Shown here one piece after another: positions 13,984 through 38,871 of a stretch of DNA of 63,091 nt (positions are counted from its first letter, which is position 1; every line of letters starts with the position of its first letter). This DNA is from Actinoallomurus spadix (GTDB lineage: Bacteria; Actinomycetota; Actinomycetes; Streptosporangiales; Streptosporangiaceae). The notes beneath the pieces are model-generated. The model did no database searches. It was not told where the DNA came from and saw nothing but the letters and a program-made list of their open reading frames with translations. The stretch is from the NCBI RefSeq assembly GCF_024055725.1, contig NZ_JAMXMX010000038.1, positions 1-63,091 on the forward strand, in the 5' to 3' direction. A program made the translations under genes and the position numbers.

Positions 13984-15618
13984 TCACTTGCAGAGGTTCT
14001 GCGTCGCCGTGCGCGCGGTCACCTGCTGCTGGGAGTCGCCGGACGGCGCCTTGGCGGGCGGGCTCACGGTGACCTTCTTCGCCCCCGACCAGGACGGGCC
14101 CACCAGGACCTGCAGCCGCGAGCCGAGCCCGGGCACCTGCCTCAGCCGTGCCCCGGGGATCGCGGCCTTCAGCGTCCGTGCCGAGTCCGCCCGGCCCGGA
14201 CCGTACTGGATGACGGTCGCCGTGGCCCCCGGCCGGGCGCCCGGCACCACGACCGCGCCGAACCCGGCGTCCCGCAGGTCGCCCGCGGCCCGGGCGGCCA
14301 GCCCGCGAGTCCCGACACCGTTGACGACCCGCACGGTGATGTCCCGCGGGGCCACGGTGAGGGCGTCGGGGTCCGGCGAACGCGACGGGGACGCGCTCGC
14401 CGAGGCGCTCTGGGCGGGTTTCGGCGGCTCGACGATCGGCTTGTCCCGCTGGATCTCCTCGAAGAGCCGGCCGGCGGCCCGGTCGTCCCACAGCACGGTC
14501 GACTGCCGCAGCCCCCCGATCGTCGTCAGGTGGTTCTGGTCGGCCAGCGGCACCGTCGTGAAGGCGATGCCGTCGGTGCTCATCCCCTTCATCTGGGTGG
14601 CCAGGGACGTCAGCGTGCCCTTCGACAGCTCCTTGTCGGCCCGGATCGTGCTCAGCGCGGCGCCGAGCACCGCCGGATACTTCGTCGGATCGCTCAGCGC
14701 CTGGTGCGCCACCGCCGACATGAACTGCTGCTGCCGCTGGATCCGGCCGAGGTCGCTGCCGCCGGTCAGGGTGTAGCGGGCGCGCGAGTAGGCCAGCCCG
14801 GTCTTGCCGTCCACGGTGCTCTTGCCGGCCGGCAGCCGCAGGCCGCTCTTCGGGTCGTCGATCGGCTGGTTCGTGCAGATGGTCACGCCGCCGAGCGCGT
14901 CGACGACCTTGATGAAGCCAAGGAAGTTGACCTCGACGTAGTGGTCGACGTGCACCCCGGTGACGCGCTCCACCGTCTGTACGGCGAGCGTCGGCCCGCC
15001 GTACATGTACGCCCAGTTGAGCTTGCCCTGCCGCTCGCCGACCGCGGTGCCCTTCGCGCCCTCACTGCCGTTCGACCGGTGCGACGGGATCGTGACCAGG
15101 GAGTCGCGCGGCAGGCTGACCACGGTGACCTTGTCGTGCTTGGACGAGATGTGCACCAGCATCATCGTGTCGGAGCGCTCGCCGTCGGCCTTGCCGAGGT
15201 GCAGGTCCCGGATCTGCTGGTCGGTCAGCCCCTCACGGCGGTCGACGCCGGCCAGCAGGATGTTCATCGAGCCCTGGGGCCCGGCGTCAGGGCGGTTCTT
15301 CAGCCCGTCGAAGGCGTTGACGCGCCGGACGCTGCCCAGCACGTAGTCCTGGAACGCCCAGCCGCCGCCGGAGAACAGCAGTACGGCCGTGGACAGCAGG
15401 CCCGTCGTCACGAGGTACCGGCGCTGCCGCCGCGCGCCGTCCGGCGCCACCGCAGCCGGTGCCGGTGCCGCGCGCGAGCGGCGCTCGACGCGCACGTGGG
15501 AGGACTCGGTGTCGCCGAGCGCGACGCCCTCCACCTCCGCGGCCTCGTCGTCACCCGGAGCGCCCGGACGGGGACGGAAGTAGCGCTCCTGAGGGTCGGA
15601 CTCCTCGTCGTGTGCCAT
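13984..15618 (-). CDS. LytR-CpsA-Psr (LCP) family glycopolymer ligase with LytR_C domain
   Basis: A 544-residue membrane-anchored LCP protein. A charged cytoplasmic tail of about 65 residues precedes one membrane helix (about 68-88) and an extracytoplasmic LCP domain (about 115-330). Conserved LCP residues lie in GVDRREG, GERSDTMMLVHI, VSLPRDSLV, NWAYMYGG and SRARYTLTGGSDLGRIQRQQ. A C-terminal LytR_C domain (about 415-505) follows a Ser/Pro linker. LCP enzymes transfer polymers from undecaprenyl pyrophosphate to peptidoglycan or arabinogalactan-type acceptors. It is one of two LCP genes in the window and diverges from the GT2 gene at 15700. Confidence 0.92.
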   Translation of the reverse strand: MAHDEESDPQERYFRPRPGAPGDDEAAEVEGVALGDTESSHVRVERRSRAAPAPAAVAPDGARRQRRYLVTTGLLSTAVLLFSGGGWAFQDYVLGSVRRVNAFDGLKNRPDAGPQGSMNILLAGVDRREGLTDQQIRDLHLGKADGERSDTMMLVHISSKHDKVTVVSLPRDSLVTIPSHRSNGSEGAKGTAVGERQGKLNWAYMYGGPTLAVQTVERVTGVHVDHYVEVNFLGFIKVVDALGGVTICTNQPIDDPKSGLRLPAGKSTVDGKTGLAYSRARYTLTGGSDLGRIQRQQQFMSAVAHQALSDPTKYPAVLGAALSTIRADKELSKGTLTSLATQMKGMSTDGIAFTTVPLADQNHLTTIGGLRQSTVLWDDRAAGRLFEEIQRDKPIVEPPKPAQSASASASPSRSPDPDALTVAPRDITVRVVNGVGTRGLAARAAGDLRDAGFGAVVVPGARPGATATVIQYGPGRADSARTLKAAIPGARLRQVPGLGSRLQVLVGPSWSGAKKVTVSPPAKAPSGDSQQQVTARTATQNLCK

Positions 15619-15699: not shown

Positions 15700-16716
15700 A
15701 TGAATCCCTCGCCCAACACACAGGTCGCCCGAAACCGCGTATGGCCGGCCGTGTCAGTGATCATGCCCGTGCTCAACGAGGAACGACATCTCGCGGAGGC
15801 GGTCGGGTCCATCCTCACCCAGGACTACCCCGGTGAGCTGGAGCTCGTCATCGCGGTCGGCCCCTCCCGTGACCGTACGCAGGAGATCGCGGAGAAGCTC
15901 GCGGCCGACGACCCGCGAATCGTCGTCGTCGCCAACCCGACGGGCCGCACCCCCAACGGCCTGAACGCCTGCATCCAGGCCTCCCGGCACCCCATCATCG
16001 TCCGCGTCGACGGCCACTCGCTGCTGCCGTCCGACTATGTCCTCGCCGCCGTCGAGACCCTCGAGGAGACGGGCGCGGACAACGTCGGCGGCGTCATGGC
16101 GGCCGAGGGCGTCACACCGTTCGAGAAGGCCGTCGCCCGCGCGATGACGACCAAGATCGGCATCGGCAACGCGACGTTCCACATCGGCGGGCAGCCCGGT
16201 GAGGCCGAGACCGTCTATCTCGGCAGCTTCCGGCGCAGCGCCCTCGACCGGGTCGGCGGGTACGACGAGACGTTCGTGCGCGCGCAGGACTGGGAGATGA
16301 ACCACCGCATCCGCCAGACCGGCGGCAAGATCTGGTTCACCCCCCGGATGCGCGTGACGTACCGGCCGCGGCCGAACCTTCGCGCGCTGGCCAAGCAGTT
16401 CTTCCACACCGGCAAGTGGCGGCGCGTCGTCGGCCGCGAGCACCAGGGCACGCTCAACCTGCGCTACCTCGCGCCACCGATCGCCGTGGTGGCGATCGTG
16501 GCCGGCGCGGTCGCGGGCGTGTTCGGCTTCTGGCCCGGCTGGATCATCCCCGGCGGGTACGCCGCCGCGATCCTCGCCGGCTCGGCCGCGACCGGGCGCG
16601 GTCTGCCGTTCTCGGCCTGGGTGCGGCTGCCGCTCGTCTACGCGACCATGCACCTCGCGTGGGGCGCGGGCTTCCTGCTCAGCCCGCCGAGCCTCGGCCG
16701 CTCTCCGCAGCGCTGA
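15700..16716 (+). CDS. GT2-family membrane glycosyltransferase
   Basis: A 338-residue GT-A fold glycosyltransferase. The N-terminal catalytic domain has SVIMPVLNEERHL, an RVDGHS stretch in the position of the DxD metal site, and AQDWEMNHRIR near the acceptor site. Two or three hydrophobic helices (about 260-330) follow, as in membrane-bound GT2 enzymes that act on lipid-linked acceptors. The donor and acceptor are unknown. Its 3' end overlaps the convergent ispD-like gene by 38 bases. Confidence 0.85.
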   Translation: MNPSPNTQVARNRVWPAVSVIMPVLNEERHLAEAVGSILTQDYPGELELVIAVGPSRDRTQEIAEKLAADDPRIVVVANPTGRTPNGLNACIQASRHPIIVRVDGHSLLPSDYVLAAVETLEETGADNVGGVMAAEGVTPFEKAVARAMTTKIGIGNATFHIGGQPGEAETVYLGSFRRSALDRVGGYDETFVRAQDWEMNHRIRQTGGKIWFTPRMRVTYRPRPNLRALAKQFFHTGKWRRVVGREHQGTLNLRYLAPPIAVVAIVAGAVAGVFGFWPGWIIPGGYAAAILAGSAATGRGLPFSAWVRLPLVYATMHLAWGAGFLLSPPSLGRSPQR

Positions 16717-17446
16717 CCCGCCCGGTCTCCCCGGCGGTGAGCTGCTCAGCCTGCCGAGCGATGATCTGCTCGGCGATGAGCAGGTCGACCGGGTGCGTGA
16801 TCTTGATGTTCTGCTCGCTGCCCGGGACGACCCTGATGGGCGTCTCGGGCAGGTAGCGGTGCACGACGCCGCAGTCGTCCGTCGGCGGCCGCTCGGCGAA
16901 CCCCGGGTCGGCCAGCGCCCGCTCGTACGCCGCGCGGATGACGGCGAGCCGGAATCCCTGCGGCGTCTGGAAGCGGCGCAGTGAGTCCCGGCGCGGCATC
17001 TCGGCCACCCGGTCGCCCTCGACCACCACCACGGTGTCGGACGAGGGCACCGCGACCGCGACGGCCTCCTCGCGCTCCAGCGTCGCGACGCACTCGGCGA
17101 TGATCCGCGCGTCCACGAACGGGCGCGCGGCGTCGTGGAACAGCACGCGCGCGTCGCCGGGCTCGTGCTCCAGCGCGGCCAGCGCCCGCAGCGTCGACTC
17201 CGTACGGGTGGAACCGCCCTCGATGACCCGGCGGACCTTGGCGTACGGTTCGGCGATCACCTCGGCCTCGGGGACGTGCCCCGCCGCCATGACGACGATG
17301 ACCTCGTCGATGTCCGGCGCCGACTCGAACGCCTCGATGGCGCGGGCCAGGATGGGGCGGCCGCCGACCGCGGCCAGCTGCTTCGGCGCGCCGAGTCCGA
17401 GGCGCAGTCCCGTCCCACCGGCGAGGACGACCGCAACGGTTCTCAT
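16679..17446 (-). CDS. ispD: IspD-family cytidylyltransferase
   Basis: A 255-residue nucleotidyltransferase of the IspD/TarI family. IspD couples CTP to 2-C-methylerythritol 4-phosphate in isoprenoid synthesis; TarI makes CDP-ribitol. The CTP-binding loop is VVLAGGTGLRLG...PKQ, followed by HDAARPFVD, RFQTPQGF, TDDCGVVH and NIKITHPVDLLIAE. The sequence fits IspD well but cannot exclude a polyol-phosphate substrate, and its position next to a CDP-alcohol operon makes that alternative worth testing. No IspF partner is adjacent. ATG at 17446; a GTG at 17455 is an alternative. Confidence 0.8.
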   Translation of the reverse strand: MRTVAVVLAGGTGLRLGLGAPKQLAAVGGRPILARAIEAFESAPDIDEVIVVMAAGHVPEAEVIAEPYAKVRRVIEGGSTRTESTLRALAALEHEPGDARVLFHDAARPFVDARIIAECVATLEREEAVAVAVPSSDTVVVVEGDRVAEMPRRDSLRRFQTPQGFRLAVIRAAYERALADPGFAERPPTDDCGVVHRYLPETPIRVVPGSEQNIKITHPVDLLIAEQIIARQAEQLTAGETGRVSAAESGRGSAG

Positions 17447-17461
17447 TCGCCGCACTTTACC

Positions 17462-17518
17462 GACCGGGTGCGTACGGACCGACCACGCGCGTACGGACCG
17501 ACCGGGTGCGTACGGCCG
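17462..17518. repeat. three 19-bp direct repeats in the ispD/CDP-alcohol divergent promoter region
   Basis: GACCGGGTGCGTACGGACC, then GACCACGCGCGTACGGACC, then GACCGGGTGCGTACGGCCG, head to tail in the 268-base divergent gap, 16 bases before the ispD-like start. Each contains GCGTACGG. They look like regulator-binding repeats. Confidence 0.75.
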
Positions 17519-17714
17519 TGAGGACTCACAGCGCCGAGGCAGCGGTAACCTATGGGGGCTCTCGCCGCGTCACCCGGCTGAACGGATGTTTACGGCGAGG
17601 AGGCGGCGCGCTACTAGTCGCGGTATGGTCGGCGCTCGCATCTCACGGCCCCGGCCGGAGAGAGACCCCCACCCCAGACCTGAGGACTACAGAGATGAAG
17701 TTCGGAGGGTGCCG

Positions 17715-19370
17715 ATGACGTTGGCAGTGGTTCTCGCGACCGAGGCGGTCGCGTCCGGTTCCACGCCGACGGCCGGCCTCACACTCCCGGGCGGCGCCGC
17801 CGTCGTCACCCGGTTGATCGCCCAGCTCCAGTCCCTCGACGTCGCCGACCGGCGCGTGATCGCCCGCCCCGAGTTCGCCGCCGCCCTGCGCGAGGCCGGT
17901 TGCGAGGTCGTCGAGTCCAAGGGGCTCGCGGACGACCTGCGCGAGATCGCCCGGGTGGCTCGCACCGCGAACCGGCCGATGCTCGTCGTGCACGGTGACG
18001 TCGTCGCCCACCGTGAGGTGTTCGCCCGGCTCATCTACAACTCCAAGGCTCCCGCCTCGGCCGTCGTCGCCCGCGTGCCCGTGAGCGACGACCGGCTGAC
18101 CCGTCCCCTCATCCGGATCCGCAGGGGCCGCATCCAGTCCGCGGGCTCCCCGTACCACCAGGTGACCGACCCGAACGCCGTCTTCCGCGGCATCGTGCGG
18201 GTCTCGCAGGAGGAGACCGGGACCCTCGCCACGGTGGCCGAGGAGCTGGCCGACCTGGCGGACAGGCCGGACGGCTTCACGGAGATCAGCCCGCTCCGCC
18301 GGCTGTGGGACGCCCCGGATGACACCGGGGACGTCGAGATCGAACAGGCCGGCGGCGTGCACCTCGAGGCCCTGGCCACCACCCCGGTCACCGGGGACGA
18401 CGCGCCGGCCCTGCTCGTCGTCGGCCTGGTGCGCTCGGGGGTGAAGGTCACCGGCCGTGGCAACAGCACGCTGGTGTGCGAGCGGGTCCTCGACCAGACG
18501 CAGGCGGACGCGGCTCAGCGGGCCGTCGACTCCGTCGACGAGGACAAGGTCCGGCTCGCCGCGGCGGTCAAGAACAACGACGGCTTCTTCACCACCTACG
18601 CGGTCAGCACCTACTCCCGCTACATCGCGCGCTGGGCCGGTAAGCGCGGCTGGACGCCGAACGCCGTCACCGCGATCTCGATGGGCATCTCGATCGTGGC
18701 CGCGGGGTTCTTCGCCCTCGGCCAGCGGTGGGGGATGATCCTCGGCGCCTTCTCGCTGTACTTCGCGTTCGTCTTCGACTGCGTGGACGGGCAGCTCGCC
18801 CGCTACACCCGGCAGTTCAGCACGCTCGGCGCGTGGCTCGACGCGACGTTCGACCGGGCCAAGGAGTACACCGTGTTCGCCGGTCTCGCGGTGGGCTCGA
18901 CCGCGGCCGTGGCCGGCGGCTCGGTGCACGGCGGTGACGTGTGGTTCCTCGCCGCGACGGCCATCACGGCGCAGACCTGTCGGCACATGGTGGACTTCGC
19001 GTTCGGCGCCTCGAAGCGGCGCCTGCCGCCGGAGCCCATCCCGATCGTTCCGCTCGGCACGCCCGGTGACAGCATGCTGGACGAGCCGGAGCCGCCGAAG
19101 AGCCGGCCCAAGGGCAGCGGTCTCAGCCACTTCGCGGTGTGGCTGTCCGCGCGCTCGGAGCAGATCCGGGTCTTCCACTGGTTCAAGAAGATGATCGTGC
19201 TTCCGATCGGGGAACGGTTCGCGCTCATCGCCCTCACCGCCGCGATCTTCAACGCGCGCGTGACGTTCTTCGCCCTGCTCACGTGGGGTGGCGTCGCCGC
19301 CTTCTACACGATCGTCGGCCGTATCCTCCGGTCCCTCACCCAGCCGAGGTCGGTGGCAGTTCCCAAATGA
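17715..19370 (+). CDS. nucleotidyltransferase-like domain fused to CDP-alcohol phosphotransferase
   Basis: A 551-residue two-part membrane protein laid out like the archaeal/thermophile IPCT-DIPPS fusion that makes and uses CDP-inositol. Residues 1-230 follow the nucleotidyltransferase fold, but the signature glycine/arginine loop and the PK pair are lost (AVVLATEAVASGSTPTAG), so this half may be inactive. Residues 290-545 form a CDP-alcohol phosphotransferase with several membrane helices and a complete motif: D355, D358-G359, A362-R363, G372, D376, D380. An NDGFFTTY...WTPNAVT bridge resembles that of DIPPS. ATG at 17715 follows CGGAGGG. It is the first gene of a five- to six-gene coupled operon. 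Confidence 0.85.
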   Translation: MTLAVVLATEAVASGSTPTAGLTLPGGAAVVTRLIAQLQSLDVADRRVIARPEFAAALREAGCEVVESKGLADDLREIARVARTANRPMLVVHGDVVAHREVFARLIYNSKAPASAVVARVPVSDDRLTRPLIRIRRGRIQSAGSPYHQVTDPNAVFRGIVRVSQEETGTLATVAEELADLADRPDGFTEISPLRRLWDAPDDTGDVEIEQAGGVHLEALATTPVTGDDAPALLVVGLVRSGVKVTGRGNSTLVCERVLDQTQADAAQRAVDSVDEDKVRLAAAVKNNDGFFTTYAVSTYSRYIARWAGKRGWTPNAVTAISMGISIVAAGFFALGQRWGMILGAFSLYFAFVFDCVDGQLARYTRQFSTLGAWLDATFDRAKEYTVFAGLAVGSTAAVAGGSVHGGDVWFLAATAITAQTCRHMVDFAFGASKRRLPPEPIPIVPLGTPGDSMLDEPEPPKSRPKGSGLSHFAVWLSARSEQIRVFHWFKKMIVLPIGERFALIALTAAIFNARVTFFALLTWGGVAAFYTIVGRILRSLTQPRSVAVPK

Positions 19371-20053
19371 GTGTACTTCCTGGTATGTCCCCGGCGGCCG
19401 GCAAGCCCGCCGCGGCCCCCGTTCCCGACGCCGAGCTCGCCTACCACGGCAGCCGGCTGGTCGCCTACCGCGACGACGGCCCCATCGCGCTCGCACTGGG
19501 CCGGCTGACCAAGGGTCAGCTGCCGCCGTTGCTGCCGTTGCTCGTCGCCGGGATCGTCACCGCGATCCTGCTGGTGGTCGGCGTCAGCGGCCAGACCAGC
19601 CCGGCGGTCTTCGCTCCGGTGCTGGTGCTGCTGCTGGCCGGTCCCGGTTCGACGCATCCGCACAGCGGGCGCCTCGACTGGCTCGTGCCGCCGCTGATGC
19701 GGGCGATCGAGTACGGTTACCTGGCGACGCTGGGCTTCTCGCACGACGTCTCCAAGCCGCTGGTCTACGCCTTCCTGGGCGTGCTGGCCTACCACCACTA
19801 CGACACCGTCTACCGCACGCGCCAGCGGTTGTGGCCGGCGCGGTGGGTGTTCGTGGCCGGTCTCGGCTGGGAGGGCCGCCTGCTGATCGCGGCTGTCGCC
19901 ACGCTCGCGGGCAGGCTGCCTGTCGTGCTGGCCGTGCTCGGCGTCTACTTCGCCCTGCTGTTCGGCATCGAGAGCGTCTACACCTGGGTGCGGACCGGTA
20001 CCGGCAAGGGCGTGATGGTGAATCTCGAGGATGAGGAGGAAGCCGGCTCATGA
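19367..20053 (+). CDS. DUF5941-like membrane protein
   Basis: A 228-residue protein with about five hydrophobic segments (near residues 53-70, 78-92, 118-140, 160-180 and 183-203). Its middle contains SHDVSKPLVYAFLGVLAYHHYDTVYR, with a His/Asp-rich stretch that could be catalytic or metal binding. I place it in the DUF5941 family, found in actinomycetes next to CDP-alcohol phosphotransferase genes. The start codon overlaps the preceding stop (ATGA), and its own stop overlaps the next start, so it is an integral part of the operon. Function unknown. Confidence 0.7.
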   Translation: MSVLPGMSPAAGKPAAAPVPDAELAYHGSRLVAYRDDGPIALALGRLTKGQLPPLLPLLVAGIVTAILLVVGVSGQTSPAVFAPVLVLLLAGPGSTHPHSGRLDWLVPPLMRAIEYGYLATLGFSHDVSKPLVYAFLGVLAYHHYDTVYRTRQRLWPARWVFVAGLGWEGRLLIAAVATLAGRLPVVLAVLGVYFALLFGIESVYTWVRTGTGKGVMVNLEDEEEAGS

Positions 20054-20781
20054 TCGGCATGGTTCTGGCCGCGGGCGCGGGGCGCCGTCTCCGCCCGTAC
20101 ACGGACACGCTGCCCAAGGCCCTGGTGCCGGTCGACGGTGACACGACGATTCTCGACATCGCACTCGGCAACCTCGCGGAGGTCGAGCTGACCGATGTCG
20201 TCATCGTCGTCGGCTACTGCGCCGAGGCGGTCGAGCAGCGCAAGGCCGCGCTGGAGAGCCGGTACGGCGTGTCCATCACGCTCGTGCACAACGACAAGGC
20301 CGAGGAGTGGAACAACGCCTACTCCATGTGGCTGGCGCGTGAGCACTTCGGCGAGGGCGTCCTGATGGTCAACGGCGACACGGTCCACCCGGTGAGCGTG
20401 GAGAAGACCCTCCTGGAGAACCGCGGCCCGGACATCCTCCTCGCCGTCGACAACGCCAAGAAGCTCGCGGACGAGGAGATGAAGGTCATCCTCGACGCCG
20501 ACGGGCACCTTCAGCGCATCACGAAGCTGATGGACCCCTCCGAGGCGTACGGCGAGTACATCGGCGCGACCCTGCTGGAGCCGGCCGCGGCCGAGCCGCT
20601 CGCCGACGCGCTGAAGGCCACCTGGGAGCGCGACCCCGACCTCTACTACGAGGACGGCTACCAGGAGCTGGTGAACCGAGGCGGGAAGATCTCGGTGGCC
20701 CCGATCGGCGCGGTCGACTGGGTCGAGGTCGACAACCACGACGACCTGGAGAAGGCCCGCCGGATCGCCAAGGAATACTGA
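20050..20781 (+). CDS. LicC/IPCT-like sugar- or polyol-phosphate nucleotidyltransferase
   Basis: A 243-residue nucleotidyltransferase with an intact N-terminal loop (GMVLAAGAGRRLRPYTDTLPKALVPV), an NNAYSMWLAR motif, VNGDTVHP and a C-terminal WVEVDNHDDLEKAR. The NNAYS motif is typical of phosphocholine (LicC) and inositol-1-phosphate cytidylyltransferases, so CTP is the likely nucleotide. It would supply the activating activity that the degenerate N-terminal half of the fusion seems to lack. ATG overlaps the previous stop (ATGA), and its stop overlaps the next start (TGATG). Confidence 0.85.
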   Translation: MIGMVLAAGAGRRLRPYTDTLPKALVPVDGDTTILDIALGNLAEVELTDVVIVVGYCAEAVEQRKAALESRYGVSITLVHNDKAEEWNNAYSMWLAREHFGEGVLMVNGDTVHPVSVEKTLLENRGPDILLAVDNAKKLADEEMKVILDADGHLQRITKLMDPSEAYGEYIGATLLEPAAAEPLADALKATWERDPDLYYEDGYQELVNRGGKISVAPIGAVDWVEVDNHDDLEKARRIAKEY

Positions 20782-21854
20782 TGCCGCTGCTCACGCGGAT
20801 GCTCCCCGCGCCGCTGTCCATCGATGTGCGGCGCGGGGCCATCGCCCACCTCGGGGAGCTGCTCGCGGACCGGCGGATCGCCACGGAGGGCCGCGTCGCC
20901 ATCGCGGTGGGGCCGGGGCAGGGCGACCAGATCGCCGAGCACATCCGGCCGAGCCTGCAGGCGTGCGAGGTGTTCCACGTCGACGGCGGCACGGTCGACG
21001 CCGCCGTCGAGCTCGGCTCCCGGCTGCGCAGCGGATCGTACGAGGCCGTCGTCGGCATCGGTGGCGGCCGGACCATCGACGCCACGAAGTACGCCGCGAC
21101 GCTGGCCGGCATGCCGATGGTCTCGGTCGCCACGAACCTCTCCCACGACGGCATCTGCTCACCCACGGCCTCCCTGGAACACGAGAAGGGCAAGAACACC
21201 TTCGGCGTGACGATGCCGCTGGCCATGGTCGTCGACCTGGACTACGTACGCGCCGCGCCGGAGCGTCTGGTCCGCGCCGGGGTCGGCGACGTGCTGAGCA
21301 ACTTCTCGGCGGTCGACGACTGGCTGCTGGCGGGCCGGGAACAGGGCGACCCGATCGACCGGCTCGCGCTGACCCTCTCCCGTACGGCCGCCGAGGCGCT
21401 CATCTACCAGCCGAAGTCGATCGAGTCGGACGAGTTCCTCACCGTGCTGGCCGAGGGGCTGGTGCTGTCGGGGATGGCGATGTCGTTCGCCGGGTCCTCA
21501 CGCCCGTCGAGCGGCGGCGACCACGAGATCCTGCACGCGATCGACCACCTGTTCCCCGGCACCGCCAACCACGGCGAGCTGGCGGGGATCGGCGCGGCGT
21601 TCTGCTACCACCTGCGTGCCACCCACCTCGGTGAGGGCGCGGAACGCCTCGAGCAGATCGTGACGTGCCTCGACCGTCACGAGCTGCCCAAGACACCGCA
21701 TGACATCGGCCTGACCGAGGAGCAGTTCGCCCAGGCGGTGCTCCACGCTCCCCAGACACGGCCCGGCCGATACACCATCCTCGAGCACCTCGGACTCGAC
21801 GAGGGCGCTGTGCTGAAAGCGGTACGCGAATATGTCGGCACCTTCGCTGGCTGA
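20781..21854 (+). CDS. glycerol-1-phosphate dehydrogenase-like enzyme
   Basis: A 357-residue member of the iron/zinc-containing alcohol dehydrogenase-dehydroquinate synthase superfamily, closest in motifs to glycerol-1-phosphate dehydrogenases (AraM/EgsA and archaeal G1PDH). It has the nucleotide loop GIGGGRTIDATKYAA, the NLSHDGICSPTAS segment typical of G1PDH, and predicted metal ligands D170 (VGDVLSNF), H248 (GDHEILH) and H264 (NHGELAG). G1PDH reduces dihydroxyacetone phosphate to sn-glycerol-1-phosphate. Another polyol phosphate product remains possible. It is coupled by overlap on both sides to the nucleotidyltransferase and the second CDP-alcohol phosphotransferase. Confidence 0.8.
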   Translation: MPLLTRMLPAPLSIDVRRGAIAHLGELLADRRIATEGRVAIAVGPGQGDQIAEHIRPSLQACEVFHVDGGTVDAAVELGSRLRSGSYEAVVGIGGGRTIDATKYAATLAGMPMVSVATNLSHDGICSPTASLEHEKGKNTFGVTMPLAMVVDLDYVRAAPERLVRAGVGDVLSNFSAVDDWLLAGREQGDPIDRLALTLSRTAAEALIYQPKSIESDEFLTVLAEGLVLSGMAMSFAGSSRPSSGGDHEILHAIDHLFPGTANHGELAGIGAAFCYHLRATHLGEGAERLEQIVTCLDRHELPKTPHDIGLTEEQFAQAVLHAPQTRPGRYTILEHLGLDEGAVLKAVREYVGTFAG

Positions 21855-22623
21855 GGTCCGGGCGGGCGGACAGCCACCCGGCCTCAAGGAACGCCGGAAC
21901 GAAGAGCACTGGGCGGGACGGCTGTACATGCGCAGCATCTCGCCCCTGTTCACCTGGCTCTTCATCCGGATCGGGTTCAGCCCGAACCAGCTCACCTACA
22001 TGATGATCGCCTGCGGCGTCCTGGGCGGCGCGGCCGTGGCGGTCGACGGCCGCGGGACGGCGGGCCTGATCTGGGCGGTCGTCGGCGCCCTGCTCATCCA
22101 GGCGTACCTCCTGCTGGACTGCTCCGATGGCGAGGTCGCGCGGTTCCGCAAGCGCACCTCGGTCACCGGCGTGTTCCTCGACCGGATCGGGCACTACATG
22201 TCGGAGGTCGCGCTGCTGGCCGGCCTCGGCGTGCGCGCCCAGGGCGCGTGGGAGAACGGCGGCTACGTCGAGCTGGGCCTGCTCGCCGCGCTCGGCGCGG
22301 CACTGATCAAGGCCGAGACCGACAACGTCGTGGTCGCCCGCGCCAAGTCGGGCCTGCCCGCGGATCCCTCGAGCGGGGACCGCGCGCTGCGCCCGGAGTC
22401 GACGGGCCTGGCGCTCGCCCGCGAGGCCGTGTCGCTGCTGAAGTTCCACCGGATCATCGGCGCGGTGGAGCTGTCGCTGCTCATCGTGGTCGCGGCGGTC
22501 ATCGACCATGTGACGGACGGCCTGACCGCCACGCGGGTCCTCGCCGTCGCCGTCGCGGTGGTCGCGGTCCTGCAGACGGGCCTGCACTTCGTCAGCATCG
22601 TGGCCTCCCGGAGGCTCAAATGA
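21832..22623 (+). CDS. CDP-alcohol phosphotransferase with a variant active site
   Basis: A 263-residue membrane protein of the CDP-alcohol phosphatidyltransferase family, with about six hydrophobic helices. The motif reads D96, D99-G100, A103-R104, G113, D117, but the last position, normally the Asp proposed as the catalytic base, is H121 (DRIGH). The enzyme would transfer a phospho-alcohol from a CDP-linked donor to a lipid or polyol acceptor. It overlaps the preceding gene by 23 bases. The substrate cannot be named; the G1PDH-like neighbour suggests a glycerol-1-phosphate moiety. Confidence 0.85.
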   Translation: MSAPSLAEVRAGGQPPGLKERRNEEHWAGRLYMRSISPLFTWLFIRIGFSPNQLTYMMIACGVLGGAAVAVDGRGTAGLIWAVVGALLIQAYLLLDCSDGEVARFRKRTSVTGVFLDRIGHYMSEVALLAGLGVRAQGAWENGGYVELGLLAALGAALIKAETDNVVVARAKSGLPADPSSGDRALRPESTGLALAREAVSLLKFHRIIGAVELSLLIVVAAVIDHVTDGLTATRVLAVAVAVVAVLQTGLHFVSIVASRRLK

Positions 22624-22675
22624 GGCGATTTCAGATGAGCTCCTCCGGGGTTCACGGCGAGTCGTGGAGGCGCGT

Positions 22676-23536
22676 GTGAGGATCTCCGTCGTCGTGCTGA
22701 CCATGGGGAACCGGCCGGTCGAGCTCGAACGCGCCGTCAAGAGCGCGCTGGGCCAGGTCGGCGTCGAGATCGAGGTCGTCCTCGTCGGCAACGGCGCGGA
22801 CGTTCCCGGTTCCTGGCCCGAGAACGTCAAGGTCCTCCGCCTCCCGGAGAACGTCGGCATCCCGGCCGGCCGCAACCGGGGCGTCGAGGCGTCGTCCGGC
22901 GAGCTCATCCTCTTCCTCGACGACGACGGCTGGTACGAGTCGATGGAGCTGGGCGCGCGGCTGCGGGACATGTTCACCGAGGATCCGAAGCTCGGCATCG
23001 TCTCCTTCCGCGTGCGCGATCCCGAGGGCGGCCCGGGGGAGCGGCGGCACGTTCCCCGGCTCCGCGCCGGCGACCCGCTCCGCTCCTCGGAGGTCACGAC
23101 GTTCCTCGGCGGCGCCTGCGCCATGCGCCGCGCCGCGTTCGACGCGGCCGGCGGGCTCCCCGAGGACTTCTTCTACGCCCATGAGGAGACCGACCTCGCC
23201 TGGCAGGCGCTGAACGCCGGATACCGCATCGTGTACGACGCCGAGTCGGTGATGTTCCACCCGGCCGTCGCGCCGACGCGGCACGAGATGTTCTACCGGC
23301 TCAACGCCCGCAACCGCGTCTGGCTCGCCCGGCGCAACCTGCCCTGGCCGCTCGTCCTCGTCTACCTCGGGGTGTGGGTGGGGATGACCGTCCTGCGCGA
23401 ACGCAAGCCGGCCTCGCTCCGCCCGTGGTTCAGCGGCTTCCTCGAGGGCTGGCGCAAGCCCGCCGGCCGGCGCCGCCCCATCTCCTGGCGCACCGTCTGG
23501 CGCATGACCCGCCTCGGCCGCCCCCCGGTCATCTAG
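22676..23536 (+). CDS. GT2-family glycosyltransferase
   Basis: A 286-residue GT-A enzyme of the rhamnosyl/galactofuranosyl-like GT2 group. It shows VVVLTMGNR at the N-terminus, NVGIPAGRNRGVEASSGE, the metal-binding FLDDDGW, an LGGACAMRRAAF stretch and an HEETDLAWQALNAG acceptor motif, with one C-terminal hydrophobic segment near 225-243. GTG at 22676 has GTGGAGG six bases upstream; GTG at 22664 is an in-frame alternative. It is 53 bases after the CDP-alcohol gene and probably the last gene of the operon, since a large hairpin follows. Confidence 0.85.
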   Translation: MRISVVVLTMGNRPVELERAVKSALGQVGVEIEVVLVGNGADVPGSWPENVKVLRLPENVGIPAGRNRGVEASSGELILFLDDDGWYESMELGARLRDMFTEDPKLGIVSFRVRDPEGGPGERRHVPRLRAGDPLRSSEVTTFLGGACAMRRAAFDAAGGLPEDFFYAHEETDLAWQALNAGYRIVYDAESVMFHPAVAPTRHEMFYRLNARNRVWLARRNLPWPLVLVYLGVWVGMTVLRERKPASLRPWFSGFLEGWRKPAGRRRPISWRTVWRMTRLGRPPVI

Positions 23537-29455: not shown

Positions 29456-30724
29456 TCACAGCAATTCGACGCGTTCGGCGGCCGTCTCATCGAGGCGGCG
29501 TGTCGCGCCGCGGGTGTCGAACAGCAGCCGCGCGTGCCGGGTGAGGCTCTCCGGGTCGTACTCCCGGTGGTCGGTGAGGACGATCACGAGGTCGGCCTCC
29601 GCGAGCGCCGTGTACAGCACGCGGGCGCGCGGCACCGGTTCGCCGTCGACCTCCCAGGACTCGACGTGCGGATCGTGGAAGCTCAGGTCGGCGCCCATCT
29701 TCCGCAGCCGCCGGGCGACCGGGCGGGCGGGCGACTCGCGCTGGTCGGCGATGTCCGGCTTGTACGTCACGCCGAGGATGAGCACCTTGGCGCCCTTCAT
29801 CGCCAGGCCCTCGCGGTTGAGCAGGGCCTGCGCGCGCTCGACGACGTACCGCGGCATCCGGTCGTTGATCTCCTGGGCCAGCTCGACGAAGCGGAATGGG
29901 TAGCCGAGGGACCGCACCTTGTACGACAGGTAGTTCGGGTCGATCGGGATGCAGTGCCCGCCGACGCCGGGGCCCGGGTAGAACGCCTGGAACCCGAACG
30001 GCTTCGTGGCGGCGCAGGCGATCGAGTCCCACAGGTCGATGCCCAGCTCGTTGCAGAACACCGCCATCTCGTTGACCAGCGCGATGTTGACGTGCCGGTA
30101 GGTGTTCTCCAGCAGCTTGGCCATCTCGGCCTCGCGGGTGCCCTTGGCCTGCACGACGTGCTCGACGAACTTGCCGTAGAACGCGGCCGCGGCGTGCGCG
30201 CAGGACGGCGTCAGGCCGCCGACGATCTTCGGGGTGTTGTGCACGCCGTACACCGGGTTGCCCGGGTCGATCCGCTCAGGGGAGAACGCCAGGTGGAAGT
30301 CCTCGCCCGCGACCAGGCCGGACTCCTCCAGGATGGGCCGGACGACCTCCTCGGTGGTACCGGGGTACGTCGTCGACTCCAGGACCACGAGCGTGCCGGG
30401 GTCCAGATGCCGCGCGACGGTCTGCGCGGCGGACCGGACGGCCGTCAGGTCCGGGCCGCCGTCGTTCGACAGCGGCGTCGGCACGCAGATCACGATGGTG
30501 CGCGCCCCGTCGAGGATGTCCTCGTCCCGGGACGGCGTGAAGCCGGCGGCGAGCATCCGCTCGACGTCCTCGGCGCTCACGTCGTCGACGTGGGACAGGC
30601 CGGCCTTGAGCCCGGCGACGACACGGGCGTCGCGGTCCAGCCCGCCGACCCGGAGGCCGGCGCGGCCGGCCTCCCGCACGAGCGGGAGGCCGACGTAGCC
30701 AAGTCCGATGACCACCAGATCCAC
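29456..30724 (-). CDS. UDP-N-acetyl-D-mannosamine/glucosamine dehydrogenase (WecC-like)
   Basis: A 422-residue nucleotide-sugar dehydrogenase, distinct from the UDP-glucose enzyme at 10415. It has the Rossmann start VIGLGYVGLPLV, a VPTPL motif, ESTTYPGTTEEVV, LAFSPERIDPGN, a KLLENTYRHVNIALVNE helix and the catalytic Cys in GPGVGGHCIPIDP. The ERIDPGN and PGVGGHCIP forms are typical of WecC/WbpA/TviB enzymes acting on UDP-HexNAc. Together with the 2-epimerase at 32245 it would make UDP-N-acetylmannosaminuronic acid. It lies in a minus-strand run with the two flanking GT4 genes. Confidence 0.9.
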   Translation of the reverse strand: MDLVVIGLGYVGLPLVREAGRAGLRVGGLDRDARVVAGLKAGLSHVDDVSAEDVERMLAAGFTPSRDEDILDGARTIVICVPTPLSNDGGPDLTAVRSAAQTVARHLDPGTLVVLESTTYPGTTEEVVRPILEESGLVAGEDFHLAFSPERIDPGNPVYGVHNTPKIVGGLTPSCAHAAAAFYGKFVEHVVQAKGTREAEMAKLLENTYRHVNIALVNEMAVFCNELGIDLWDSIACAATKPFGFQAFYPGPGVGGHCIPIDPNYLSYKVRSLGYPFRFVELAQEINDRMPRYVVERAQALLNREGLAMKGAKVLILGVTYKPDIADQRESPARPVARRLRKMGADLSFHDPHVESWEVDGEPVPRARVLYTALAEADLVIVLTDHREYDPESLTRHARLLFDTRGATRRLDETAAERVELL

Positions 30725-30736
30725 CAGTGGCTCCCT

Positions 30737-32197
30737 TCAGGATGCTGCGGAGGCGAGGTCCCGGTAGGCGCCGAGACAGCGGGCGGTGACGGCCCGCCAG
30801 GTGCGGTTCGCCGCGACCCATTCCCGGGCCGCCTGCCCGATTTCGCCGCGTAGCTCCGGACTGTAAATGAGCTGGTCCAGACAATTCGCCCATGCTTCCG
30901 GGTCTTCTGGAAGAGTTAACGTGCCGGTCACGCCGGGTTCGATGATTTCGCGAAGCGCTTTGACATCACTTGCTATCACCGGGATTCCCGCTGCCATCGC
31001 CTCCAGCGGTTTCAGCGGAGTCACCAGCTGGCACACCCGGTCCGCCCGCCGCGGGACCGCGAAGACATCGAGGACTGCGTGATACCGACGTACCTGATCG
31101 ACCGGCACCCGGCCGGTGAAGATCGCCGGGACATCGAGCTCGGCGGCCCGGCGTTCCAGCGCCGGCCGCTCGGGTCCGTCGCCGACGAGCAGGAGTGTGA
31201 AGTCGCGCCGCAGCGCCGCCGCCTCGATGAGCGTGTCGATGCCCTCGAAGCCGTAGAACGTCGAGGTGAGGCCGACGACGACCTCGCCCTCGGCGATGCC
31301 GAGGTCGGCCCGCAGCTTCCCGCCGTCCGGCAGCGGCTCCAGGAACGTGTCGTCGACGGCGTTCGGCACGACGAGCACGTCGCCGACGCCGCCGCGTCCC
31401 AGGATCTCGGCCCGCATCGCCTCGCCGAGCGTCACGACCAGGTCGGCGTCGCGCATCCGGGCCGTCTCCAGCTCGCGGGTGAGCCGGTAGAACTCGTCCT
31501 CCGTCGAGCGCGCCGGGTCGCGCGACAGCCAGGAGTCCTCCAGGAAGCCGCGGACCTCGTACACCACCGGCAGGCCGTACCTGCGGCGCAGCTCCAGCGC
31601 GACGGCGGCGTTGAGGTGGTTGCTGGCGGCGTGCAGCACGGACGGGCGCAGCTCCTCGACGAGCCGTCCAGCCAGGTCGGCGGCCTTGCGCACCTCGCGT
31701 ACCGGCCCCTTCGGCGGCGTCCACGGCAGCAGCCGGTGGTAGGGGATCCCATCGACCTCGCAGCGCGGCCGCGCGTCCCGGAGGCCCTGGGTCAGCGGGT
31801 AGCCGAGCCGCGTCACGACGTGCGGGTCCAGGCCGAGCTCGCGCTGCGCGGACACGACGCGGTGCGTCCGCACGGTGTACCCGGCCTGCGTGCGCGGCAG
31901 CGCGTTCGTGACCAGGTGCAGCACCGTCATCCGCGCCCCGGACGGGCGGGCGGGGACGGGACGCCCGGCCCGCGGCCTCACCTGAGCGGCGTCGTCGAGC
32001 AGCTCCCGCAGCTCCCGGGACTCACGGTCCTGACGCTGCGGGGCCGGCGCGGCGAGCGCGCGGAACCGCGTGCGCACCGGGCCGGGTGCCACGCGGAGCG
32101 CCAGCCGTACGGCCAGCCGGACCGCCCGGCGGGGATCGGCGCTCACGTGCCGCCACGCGAGCACCGACCAGAAGAAGAACATCTTGGCCACCTGCAT
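30737..32197 (-). CDS. GT4-family glycosyltransferase with N-terminal extension
   Basis: A 486-residue GT-B enzyme. Residues 1-85 form a basic, partly hydrophobic extension (KMFFFWSVLAW near the start) that may attach to the membrane. The GT4 domain follows, with LVTNALPRTQAGYTVRTHR, VYEVRGFLEDSW, VVPNAVDDTFLEP and the signature PLKPLEAMAAGIPVIASDV, then EIIEPGVTGTL. ATG at 32197 is preferred, because the frame beyond it has only TTG at 32242. It sits 12 bases upstream of the WecC-like gene on the same strand and diverges from the 2-epimerase across 47 bases. Confidence 0.82.
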   Translation of the reverse strand: MQVAKMFFFWSVLAWRHVSADPRRAVRLAVRLALRVAPGPVRTRFRALAAPAPQRQDRESRELRELLDDAAQVRPRAGRPVPARPSGARMTVLHLVTNALPRTQAGYTVRTHRVVSAQRELGLDPHVVTRLGYPLTQGLRDARPRCEVDGIPYHRLLPWTPPKGPVREVRKAADLAGRLVEELRPSVLHAASNHLNAAVALELRRRYGLPVVYEVRGFLEDSWLSRDPARSTEDEFYRLTRELETARMRDADLVVTLGEAMRAEILGRGGVGDVLVVPNAVDDTFLEPLPDGGKLRADLGIAEGEVVVGLTSTFYGFEGIDTLIEAAALRRDFTLLLVGDGPERPALERRAAELDVPAIFTGRVPVDQVRRYHAVLDVFAVPRRADRVCQLVTPLKPLEAMAAGIPVIASDVKALREIIEPGVTGTLTLPEDPEAWANCLDQLIYSPELRGEIGQAAREWVAANRTWRAVTARCLGAYRDLASAAS

Positions 32198-32244
32198 GGC
32201 GGGCGAGGTTAGGGATCGTCCGTGAACGAAAGGGAAACGCAACT

Positions 32245-33315
32245 GTGATCTCGCATGTACTCGGCGCGCGGCCGAACTTCGTCAAGGCCGCGCCGGTGAT
32301 CGCCGCGCTGTCCGGGACGGGCCGCGGGCAGCGGGTGATCCACACGGGTCAGCACTACGACGAGCGCATGTCGGAGGTGTTCTTCCGCGACCTCGGCCTG
32401 CCCGAACCCGACGTGAACCTGGAGGTCGGCTCCGGCAGCCACGCGGCCCAGACCGCCGCGATCATGGTGGCGCTGGAGAAGGAGTTCATCGAGCGTTCAC
32501 CCGAGCTCGTCATGGTGTACGGCGACGTGAACTCCACCATCGCCGCCGCCCTCGTCGCGGCCAAGCTCCGCATCCCGGTCGCCCACGTGGAGGCGGGGCT
32601 GCGCAGCTTCGACATGACCATGCCGGAGGAGGTCAACCGCCGGCTCGTCGACCAGCTGTCCGACCTGTGCCTCGTGACGAGCCCGGAGGCGGTCGGCCAC
32701 CTCGCCGCGGAGGGGGTCGCGGTCGAGCGGATCCACTTCGTCGGCAACCCGATGATCGACACGCTGCTCGCGCACCTGGACCGGTTCGACACCGGGGCCG
32801 TGCGGCGGGCGTACGACCTGCCCGAGCGGTACGTCGTCGCGACGCTGCACCGGCCCGCGAACGTCGACGACCCGGAGGTCGCGGCGGGCCTCGTGAAGCG
32901 GCTGCACGAGATCGCCGAACTCGTGGACGTGGTCATGCCGGTGCATCCGCGCGGCCGGAGGGTGCTCACCGAGGCCGGGCTGGACGCGCATCCGCGCGTC
33001 CGGCTGCTCGAGCCGCTCGGCTACGTCGAGTTCGTCGCGGCCGTCCGCGGCGCGGCCGCGGTCGTCACCGACTCCGGCGGCGTGCAGGAGGAGACGACGA
33101 TCCTCGGCGTGCCGTGCCTGACGCTGCGGCCCAACACCGAGCGGCCGATCACGATCACGCATGGCACGAACCGGCTCGTCACCGCCGACGACGTCGTTCC
33201 CGCCGTCGCGGAGGCCCTCGCGGCCGGCCGTGGCGAGGGGGACCGCCCGCCGCTGTGGGACGGCCACGCCGGACCGCGCATCGCCCGCGTCGTGGAGGGA
33301 TGGCTCGATGGCTGA
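32245..33315 (+). CDS. wecB: non-hydrolysing UDP-N-acetylglucosamine 2-epimerase (WecB)
   Basis: A 356-residue epimerase interconverting UDP-GlcNAc and UDP-ManNAc. Family motifs run in order: GARPNFVKAAPV, TGQHYD, VYGDVNST, HVEAGLRSFD, TLHRPANVD, PVHPRG, TDSGGVQEE, and LRPNTERPIT. GTG at 32245 follows GAAAGGGA at 9 bases and gives the standard N-terminus. It is divergent from a minus-strand run that includes the matching dehydrogenase, so both steps to UDP-ManNAcA lie within 4 kb. It overlaps the next gene by eight bases. Confidence 0.93.
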   Translation: MISHVLGARPNFVKAAPVIAALSGTGRGQRVIHTGQHYDERMSEVFFRDLGLPEPDVNLEVGSGSHAAQTAAIMVALEKEFIERSPELVMVYGDVNSTIAAALVAAKLRIPVAHVEAGLRSFDMTMPEEVNRRLVDQLSDLCLVTSPEAVGHLAAEGVAVERIHFVGNPMIDTLLAHLDRFDTGAVRRAYDLPERYVVATLHRPANVDDPEVAAGLVKRLHEIAELVDVVMPVHPRGRRVLTEAGLDAHPRVRLLEPLGYVEFVAAVRGAAAVVTDSGGVQEETTILGVPCLTLRPNTERPITITHGTNRLVTADDVVPAVAEALAAGRGEGDRPPLWDGHAGPRIARVVEGWLDG

Positions 33316-37446: not shown

Positions 37447-38871
37447 TCAGGACTTGTCGGAGCAGACGTCCGCGGCGGCGTTCACCGCGCCGGCGGCGCT
37501 CGAGGAGGGGATGTCGGTCGACTGTGAGGTCTTCAGGCCCTCCCAGTCCGGGCCGAGGACGAGGTCCACGCTGCCGGCCGGGGTGTCCTGCCCGGCGACC
37601 GGCTTGGCGTTCGGGACGACCTGGGCCAGGGCCGCGGCCTGCTGGTCGGCGCCGGTGCCGTAGCGCACCTCGGTCTTGGCCGGCTTCGCGCCGGTCAGGG
37701 TGCCGACCTTGACGACCTGGTAGCCGCGTGCCTTGAGCTGCTCCCCGGCCCGCCCGGCGAGGCCCGGGGTGGCCGTGCCGTTGAGGACCCTGACCGTGAC
37801 CTGCGCGGGCTGGAGCTTGACCTTCTTGACCTTGGCGGGGGCCTGCACCTGGTTGTCGTTGCGGATCGCGGCGAACAGGTTGTCCGCGTCCGGCTGCTTC
37901 CACGCGATGCGGTTGGGGTCGGGGGCGTACGCCCCCCACGGCACGGTGATGAACTGGACCTTGCCCGCCGACATCCCCTGCACGCTGCCCGCGACCTTCT
38001 TCATCTCGTCGAGGCTGAAGTCCTTGTCGGTGGTGACCGACTTGGTCGCGGCGTCGAGGAAGCTCAGCAGTTTCGACGGGTTGGTCAGGGTGCCGTTGCT
38101 CGTCGCCTTCTTCACGACGGCGCCGAGGAACTTCTGCTGGCGCTTGATGCGGTCCGTGTCGGAGCCGTCGCCCAGGCCGTGGCGCGTGCGGACGTAGGCC
38201 AGCGCCTGCTCACCTTTGACGATGTGCCGCCCGGCGGACAGGTACAGCTTGCTGCTCTTGTCGGCGACACGTCTGGGGAGGCAGATCTCGACGCCGCCGA
38301 GGGCGTCCACGACGCGCTTGAAACCGGAGAAGTCGACCTTGACGAAGTGGTCGATGCGGATCTTCGTCAGCGCCTCGAGGGTCCGGATCGTGCAGGCGGC
38401 GCCGCCGTTGTTGAACGACGAGTTGATCATGGCGACGCTCTGCGCCGGGATGGTGCGGCCACTGCTCGTCTTGCAGGCGGGGATCGGCACCATCGAGTCC
38501 CGGGGGAAGCTGATGCCGATGGCCTTCTTCCCGCCCGGGGACAGGTGCAGCAGGATCATCGTGTCGGAGCGCTCGCCGACGTCCCTGCCGTACTTGGCGT
38601 TCGCGCCGTTCCGCTGGTCCGAGCCGATGAGGAGGACGTTCAGCGCGTTGTTGAGCTTGGGCGGGCGCTTCTTGCCCAGCTGCGCGGTGACGTCCTCGTG
38701 CTTGATGTTGCCTTCGAGCTTGCGGTACGCCGCGTACGCGGTCAGGCTCGTCCCGACGAGGACCACCGCCATCGCGATGGACGCCCAGCCGATGACGCGC
38801 CACCAGATCCCCCGCTTCGGCGGGGGGCCGGACGGGTAGTCCTGGTCCAGGTAGTCGTAGTCGCTGATCAT
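37447..38871 (-). CDS. LCP-family glycopolymer ligase with LytR_C domain, second copy
   Basis: A 474-residue LCP protein with a short acidic tail (residues 1-20), one membrane helix (about 25-47), an LCP domain (about 78-290) and LytR_C (about 355-445). Key LCP motifs are LLIGSDQR, GERSDTMILLHLS, SFPRDSMVPIP, INSSFNNGG and YVRTRHGLGDGSDTDRIKRQQKF. It is only moderately similar to the LCP protein at 13984, so the two may prefer different polymers. It lies next to TIGR03089, as an LCP gene does in mycobacteria from memory. Between 37274 and 37446 there is a short 18-bp repeat (GGCCACCGCGT, two copies) and no gene. Confidence 0.92.
   Translation of the reverse strand: MISDYDYLDQDYPSGPPPKRGIWWRVIGWASIAMAVVLVGTSLTAYAAYRKLEGNIKHEDVTAQLGKKRPPKLNNALNVLLIGSDQRNGANAKYGRDVGERSDTMILLHLSPGGKKAIGISFPRDSMVPIPACKTSSGRTIPAQSVAMINSSFNNGGAACTIRTLEALTKIRIDHFVKVDFSGFKRVVDALGGVEICLPRRVADKSSKLYLSAGRHIVKGEQALAYVRTRHGLGDGSDTDRIKRQQKFLGAVVKKATSNGTLTNPSKLLSFLDAATKSVTTDKDFSLDEMKKVAGSVQGMSAGKVQFITVPWGAYAPDPNRIAWKQPDADNLFAAIRNDNQVQAPAKVKKVKLQPAQVTVRVLNGTATPGLAGRAGEQLKARGYQVVKVGTLTGAKPAKTEVRYGTGADQQAAALAQVVPNAKPVAGQDTPAGSVDLVLGPDWEGLKTSQSTDIPSSSAAGAVNAAADVCSDKS

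Follow-up and report, generated by a model that had tools for sequence, protein, structure and literature searches.

The 63,091-nucleotide stretch of Actinoallomurus spadix DNA analysed here (the window; contig 31 of a 98.3% complete genome of 8.02 Mb) carries a real and strongly conserved operon, in which a LicC-like nucleotidyltransferase (NTase) gene stands directly before the gene for a glycerol-1-phosphate dehydrogenase (G1PDH) homologue, accompanied by CDP-alcohol phosphotransferases (CDP-APs), the membrane protein DUF5941 and a family 2 glycosyltransferase (GT2) (Table 1). On balance, we favour a reading in which the dehydrogenase product would become CDP-glycerol of sn-1 configuration, from which a CDP-AP would serve a lipid-linked glycan that is exported and joined to peptidoglycan. 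A fuller formulation, in which a dedicated cytosolic supply of CDP-sn-glycerol-1-phosphate and CDP-APs with degenerate partners would build an exported wall glycopolymer, a mirror-image teichoic acid route in Actinobacteria, is put forward tentatively, as somewhat short of an even chance. The core reaction sequence appears defensible, with the donor stereochemistry as its surprising and the acceptor as its weak part.

As read from the sequences, the dehydrogenase would reduce dihydroxyacetone phosphate to sn-glycerol-1-phosphate, which the NTase would couple to CTP, so that the product would be the enantiomer of the one made by TagD. The transfer of glycerol-1-phosphate would fall to an intact CDP-AP. 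In A. spadix this would be the fusion of an NTase-fold and a CDP-AP domain, which may work together with two further proteins, the motif-less DUF5941 half and the second CDP-AP with its altered motif. The acceptor would be a lipid-linked glycan assembled by the GT2 enzymes, upon which a TagGH-type ABC transporter would export the product and the neighbouring LCP protein would join it to peptidoglycan. What the analysis establishes is which genes are present, their order and conservation, their domains and the state of their motifs; the individual reactions, the configuration of the donor, the acceptor and the final location are inferred from these. Archaeal lipids are set apart by the chirality of their sn-glycerol-1-phosphate, and such a pathway, if true, would explain why actinobacteria keep a G1PDH, assign a function to a Streptomyces locus known by synteny only and add a new activated precursor to wall or lipid chemistry.

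Conservation of the operon

The NTase gene is located directly upstream of the dehydrogenase gene on the same strand in 80/80 named loci, a set that comprises the best 80 among at least 575 relatives, is biased to close relatives and includes no Streptomyces. Genes in these loci were called by a simple caller, each label being the best BLAST match irrespective of its position in the locus; several of the loci are truncated by contig ends. The complete order fusion, DUF5941, NTase, G1PDH, CDP-AP and GT2 is retained in 43 of the 80 loci, and 53 have a CDP-AP and a GT2 downstream of the G1PDH, with the GT2 gene directly after that of the second CDP-AP.

In a phylum sample of 396 genomes (thresholds 1e-30 for the dehydrogenase and 1e-15 for the NTase; adjacency defined as the same contig and less than 500 bases apart), the dehydrogenase is found in 42, the NTase in 46 and both in 39 genomes, with the two genes within 500 bases in 36 of these 39. 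Phylogeny ignored, co-occurrence in 39/42 corresponds to a hypergeometric p of ~4e-43. The genes are separated by 15 kb in genome G108 and by 3.4 kb in G003, and lie on different contigs in G058, where the dehydrogenase gene sits at a contig end. At the thresholds used, seven genomes possess the NTase without the dehydrogenase and three the dehydrogenase without the NTase. DUF5941 is present in 19/396 genomes and accompanied by both genes in 19/19; in genome G204 it is encoded 0.9 Mb away from the pair. An earlier note on the window, which had been drawn from the sequence alone, made its proposed pathway depend on the genes occurring together in other genomes, which they do. The polyol-phosphate-type dehydrogenase, CTP-type nucleotidyltransferase and CDP-AP(s) it had grouped together appear, by these counts (80/80 loci, 39/42 genomes), as one conserved unit.

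Domain scans confirm the seven genes and domains that the same note had listed between 16679 and 23536, with five central genes overlapping end to start: by 4 bp between fusion and DUF5941, 4 bp between DUF5941 and NTase, 1 bp between NTase and dehydrogenase and 23 bp between dehydrogenase and second CDP-AP, followed by a 40-bp gap before the GT2 gene. All families in that list stand; the IspD gene, though, lies on the opposite strand, and the NTase half of the fusion lacks the catalytic loop.

In 22/80 named loci, the NTase-G1PDH pair is followed by one short CDP-AP with complete D1-D4, the genes mostly overlapping. Judged by genus (Micromonospora, Actinoplanes, Salinispora, Catellatospora and others), we take these loci to be Micromonosporaceae; one title names the family. 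As these loci combine the pair with a single intact CDP-AP, the core does not seem reducible below dehydrogenase, cytidylyltransferase and CDP-AP. The pair also stands without adjacent CDP-APs, in loci L057-L059 of family f10; its neighbours scanned in L057 are a type I phosphodiesterase-family protein, a Bac_transf sugar transferase and a DUF4012 protein. Other uses of the enzyme are suggested by G1PDH relatives whose neighbours are a mannitol dehydrogenase-family protein and a GDPD in L060 and a HAD phosphatase in L062.

On viral contigs, one weak partial relative was found (31% identity over residues 83-175). Eight plasmid records contain a relative; of the three regions viewed, one holds a Streptomyces operon and the other two a dehydrogenase from outside the Actinobacteria with no such pair alongside.

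The dehydrogenase, the nucleotidyltransferase and the activated unit

The best solved single-sequence matches of the dehydrogenase are G1PDHs (4rgq, 1.9e-42), and with a profile built from 17 relatives, the entries named G1PDH reach 229-244 bits (4rgq, 4rfl and 5fb3) and 153 bits (9h4x), as against 92 bits at most for glycerol dehydrogenases other than 3ce9. D170, H248 and H264, singled out early on, align with the D/H/H metal ligands of solved G1PDHs, as do G94-G96 and D100 of the GGG(K/R)xxD dinucleotide site. The ligand-region pattern fits 110/116 dehydrogenase relatives (motif counts here and below draw on pools from named and other loci with one duplicate sequence in each; 116 sequences for the dehydrogenase, 112 for the NTase and 68 for DUF5941). 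Going by profile scores and a published tree, no characterised solved family is nearer than G1PDH. The published phylogeny contains a Streptomyces sequence and names a group of Gammaproteobacteria and Actinobacteria, and the G1PDH gene is recorded in 14/44 bacterial phyla (PMC5059525).

For the NTase, the best solved match is LicC (1jyk, 3.1e-14), followed by PntC and the Thermotoga-type inositol-1-phosphate CTP transferase (4jd0). The protein shares the GxGxR...PK loop with 81/112 relatives, most of the 12 misses inspected being NTase calls with cut starts, and the NGD and ExD motifs are present in 106/112, which is the LicC/COG1213-type motif set (the COG1213 label follows the CpgD paper, PMC12275187, and not a COG search). 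The constant pairing of NTase and dehydrogenase is the chief reason to suppose that the NTase uses the dehydrogenase product, which would result in CDP-glycerol of sn-1 configuration, and we propose the enzyme to be a CTP:sn-glycerol-1-phosphate cytidylyltransferase. In the A. spadix genome, TagGH-like pairs are present on contigs 44 and 32 and a TagF-family gene on contig 33, and no TagD scores over the cut-off (best match 40.8 bits versus 165.4, RfaE/HldE-like by eye), which makes the NTase a candidate CDP-glycerol source.

Several characterised systems resemble parts of this scheme. CpgD of ceramide diphosphoglycerate synthesis in Caulobacter equally is a LicC-related (COG1213) cytidylyltransferase producing a CDP-C3 unit, CDP-glycerate, but from phosphoglycerate as the substrate (PMC12275187). 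TarI/TarJ, which provide CDP-ribitol, have in common the tight association of a dehydrogenase with a cytidylyltransferase, whereas the core pair here belongs to other enzyme families and is found beside an IspD-SDR type fusion in relatives. Bacillus AraM-PcrB likewise involves a bacterial G1PDH; the dehydrogenase here has a nucleotidyltransferase as its partner, and PcrB was not found. That the operon serves archaeal-type ether lipid synthesis as with AraM and PcrB, an idea in line with the presence of a G1PDH homologue, is highly improbable as PcrB/GGGPS has no match in the 98.3% complete genome, with positive controls from B. subtilis and archaea. Ether lipid synthesis is consequently disfavoured, and the archaeal-lipid-like chemistry that the earlier note had considered appears unlikely.

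With respect to stereochemistry, CDP-glycerol has been stated to be sn-3 and lipoteichoic acid sn-1 (PMC7086022). Bacterial AraM has been called an exception and, in the context of Actinobacillus pleuropneumoniae, free sn-glycerol-1-phosphate reasonably assumed to be absent; the two cytidylyltransferases of that study accepted both enantiomers in vitro (PMC8262930). When supplied with racemic CDP-glycerol, capsule polymerases are able to build in sn-1 units (PMC5974469). Text searches of the open-licence literature retrieved no paper for 'glycerol-1-phosphate cytidylyltransferase', PMC8262930 alone for 'glycerol-1-phosphate dehydrogenase' with 'CDP-glycerol', and no description of the pathway among the papers listed. 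The statement that the combination matches none known needs to be narrowed, since a Streptomyces region of the same synteny, with a CDP-alcohol phosphotransferase, a GT2, a sugar-phosphate NTase, araM, tagG, tagH and crtB, has already been listed (PMC13118837, 2026); the accessible portion of that paper names the genes and describes their synteny but proposes no pathway. LCP and TagGH functions in Streptomyces have been described in PMC11481543 and PMC10269677, the accessible portions of which do not mention the operon, and that of PMC9385802 contains nothing on it.

Phosphotransferases and acceptor

The fusion protein consists of an NTase-fold pseudo-domain (residues ~1-275) and a CDP-AP domain (~290-545) with the complete motif DxxDGxxAR(x)nGxxxDxxxD (D355, D358, D376 and D380). 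The fourth position (D4) is Asp in 70/75 relatives, a pool of 48 sequences from named and 27 from other loci, which includes eight below 440 aa, two Micromonosporaceae CDP-APs among them, and leaves out three motif-less Nocardiopsis-type homologues that remained unlabelled. The N-terminal half matches the NTase alignment with a profile probability of 89.8, and its AF2 model (pLDDT 80.7) matches PntC, GlmU, LicC and the IPCT-DIPPS 4mnd; the NTase catalytic loop, however, is found in 0/75 relatives (including short or cut calls). The combination of an NTase fold and a CDP-AP is thus shared with IPCT-DIPPS of Archaeoglobus, but the NTase half is without the catalytic loop here. A bifunctional IPCT-DIPPS enzyme was rejected on these grounds, and the DIPPS-like fusion of the first description probably does not contain a working cytidylyltransferase half.

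The second CDP-AP keeps D1-D3 (D96, D99 and D117) and has H121 in place of D4, the fourth Asp of CDP-APs being the presumed catalytic base (PMC6506517). Among 80 relatives (54 from named loci, 26 others), D4 is replaced by His in 62 and by Ala in 18, with Asp in 0/80; the protein aligns by profile with the fusion at 3e-17. DUF5941 shows the overall CDP-AP fold in its predicted structure and the DxxDGxxAR motif in 0/68 relatives, and is predicted to be a degenerate, motif-less third copy of this fold. Sequence profiles do not link DUF5941 to CDP-APs (probabilities <1%); by eye, there is a short local resemblance, WLDATFDRAKEY versus WLVPPLMRAIEY. A text search of the open-licence literature found no paper on DUF5941, which, if the model is right, would gain a fold. 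The suggestion of two membrane transfers is unsupported, because D4 is absent from 80/80 second CDP-APs and DUF5941 lacks the motif.

As to the acceptor, the genes within the named loci include, by best match, LCP in 48/80, the upstream GT2 in 47/80, a TagF-like protein in 22/80 and a TagG-like protein in 5/80. TagG and TagH are encoded between IspD and the operon in four Nocardiopsis-type genomes (L116, L117, L121 and L136). On plasmid p1 of S. fungicidicus (L186, 6447-19044), a CDP-AP+DUF5941 fusion, a 'phosphocholine cytidylyltransferase', the dehydrogenase, a CDP-AP and a glycosyltransferase are followed by an ABC permease and an ABC ATPase. The ABC proteins scanned (L051 and L116) resemble teichoic acid, capsule and galactan exporters, the two ATPases scoring best against TagH models, all below the curated cut-offs. 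The neighbours, which are LCP, glycosyltransferases and TagGH-type proteins (the last in Nocardiopsis and Streptomyces), point to a glycan of the wall or another lipid-linked glycan. The scheme would then parallel Bacillus wall teichoic acid synthesis (TagD, TagB/F, TagGH, LCP) in that a glycerol phosphate is activated with CTP and passed to a glycan on a lipid carrier, with a TagGH-type exporter and an LCP ligase occurring here in related loci. It would differ by the use of sn-1 glycerol phosphate in place of sn-3, provided that the G1PDH assignment is right, by a LicC-type cytidylyltransferase where Bacillus has the TagD type, and by a CDP-AP instead of TagF in the operon.

Several observations weigh against the transfer of sn-glycerol-1-phosphate to a wall glycan. 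Regarding the acceptor, the window contains no TagGH genes, and the Nocardiopsis fusion homologue lacks the motif while the D4-less protein is retained, which blurs the assignment of the working CDP-AP. Moreover, homologues of LCP, GT2 or TagGH genes as known from the A. spadix locus are absent from 20/22 Micromonosporaceae loci, several of them cut by contig ends, so these parts appear lineage-dependent, and the S. fungicidicus operon abuts hpnC, hpnD, hpnE, a polyprenyl synthetase gene and shc, which would fit a lipid product. CDP-APs typically make lipids. Together with the minimal module and the adjacent hopanoid genes, and with CpgD feeding a sphingolipid head group (PMC12275187), this argues for the same sn-1 CDP-glycerol being used on a lipid acceptor (diacylglycerol, polyprenol, a glycolipid or a hopanoid) for a glycerophospholipid or glycerophosphoglycolipid. 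We consider this unlikely, given that other lineages repeatedly have LCP, GT2 and TagGH-type genes and that glycan genes also accompany the minimal module. In the two module loci that were scanned (L160, 12316-16404; L170, 11757-15670), a GT4 and a Bac_transf sugar transferase of the polyprenyl-phosphate type are encoded within ~5 kb, the GT4 gene being the next one past that of the CDP-AP and on the minus strand. With Bac_transf also near the pair in L057, glycan genes are close by in these loci too, of other families.

Regarding the donor, the top profile match of the dehydrogenase, 3ce9 (290 bits), is titled glycerol dehydrogenase, the NCBIfam G1PDH equivalog model scores 249.1 bits with a cut-off of 413, for which reason the enzyme is termed a bacterial G1PDH homologue, and CpgD did not use glycerol-1-phosphate (PMC12275187). 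The missed cut-off, along with the varied substrates of the nearest solved relatives of the NTase, would be compatible with a dehydrogenase for another keto-phosphate and with CDP-ribitol, CDP-inositol or another CDP-polyol as the unit. This possibility seems quite unlikely, as the solved G1PDH-named entries outscore glycerol dehydrogenases other than 3ce9 and the published G1PDH tree includes the Streptomyces sequence (PMC5059525).

IspD and the locus architecture

The IspD protein encoded divergently from the operon passes the TIGR00453 model for IspD of the methylerythritol phosphate (MEP) pathway but not the ribitol-5-phosphate model. No other strong IspD match was obtained in the genome, a weak second one being located in a GlmU-looking protein, and the gene in the window probably serves isoprenoid synthesis through the MEP pathway. 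IspF is encoded on another contig (contig 22; L072, 8056-8842), where its gene directly follows one of CarD-like type and no IspD gene separates the two. An IspD-type gene is present within 50/80 named loci, in 24 of which the protein exceeds 400 aa with an IspD-SDR fusion as the best match, and the 22/80 loci with a TagF-like gene recall the TarI/TarJ arrangement, so that IspD might act in the pathway by making a second CDP-polyol. This appears somewhat unlikely for A. spadix, where the sole IspD found passes the MEP and not the ribitol cut-off, IspF is present and no IspD accompanies it. The first description was right about the cytidylyltransferase family, and pathway membership is uncertain; IspD as a core member is weakened.

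The long IspD proteins (415-499 aa in L086, L089, L093-L096 and L098-L101; SDR domain shown for L100) are often located next to large TagF-like proteins, and near the operon in these relatives the two are likely a second polyol-phosphate activation pair.

Table 1. Genes of the operon and its neighbours in the window
Feature	Position	Strand	Supporting detail
LCP + LytR_C protein, proposed glycopolymer-peptidoglycan ligase	13984-15618	-	PF03816 1.7e-49, PF13399 2.7e-15
Upstream GT2, conserved neighbour	15700-16716	+	Pfam Glycos_transf_2 5.4e-22
IspD-family cytidylyltransferase	16679-17455	-	TIGR00453 182.8 bits, cut-off 181.3; divergent from operon
NTase-fold/CDP-AP fusion, 551 aa	17715-19370	+	Pfam CDP-OH_P_transf 1e-11
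DUF5941 (PF19365) membrane protein, 228 aa	19367-20053	+	
LicC-like nucleotidyltransferase, 243 aa	20050-20781	+	Pfam NTP_transferase 3.7e-13
G1PDH homologue (EgsA/AraM family; Fe-ADH_2), 357 aa	20781-21854	+	Ligands D170, H248, H264
Second CDP-AP, 263 aa	21832-22623	+	Pfam CDP-OH_P_transf 2e-6
GT2, 290 aa	22664-23536	+	Pfam Glycos_transf_2 4.6e-16

The most likely start of the fusion gene is the ATG at 17715, which is preceded by GGAGG. Actinoallomurus sp. RYN_221 (L102) is among the named loci with relatives. Elsewhere in the window, a further envelope-glycan block (29456-33315) encodes a UDPG/GDP-Man-family UDP-sugar dehydrogenase, a glycosyltransferase and a UDP-GlcNAc 2-epimerase, matches to which adjoin the operon in Nocardiopsis-type loci, and a second LCP-LytR_C protein (PF03816 and PF13399) is encoded at 37447-38871.

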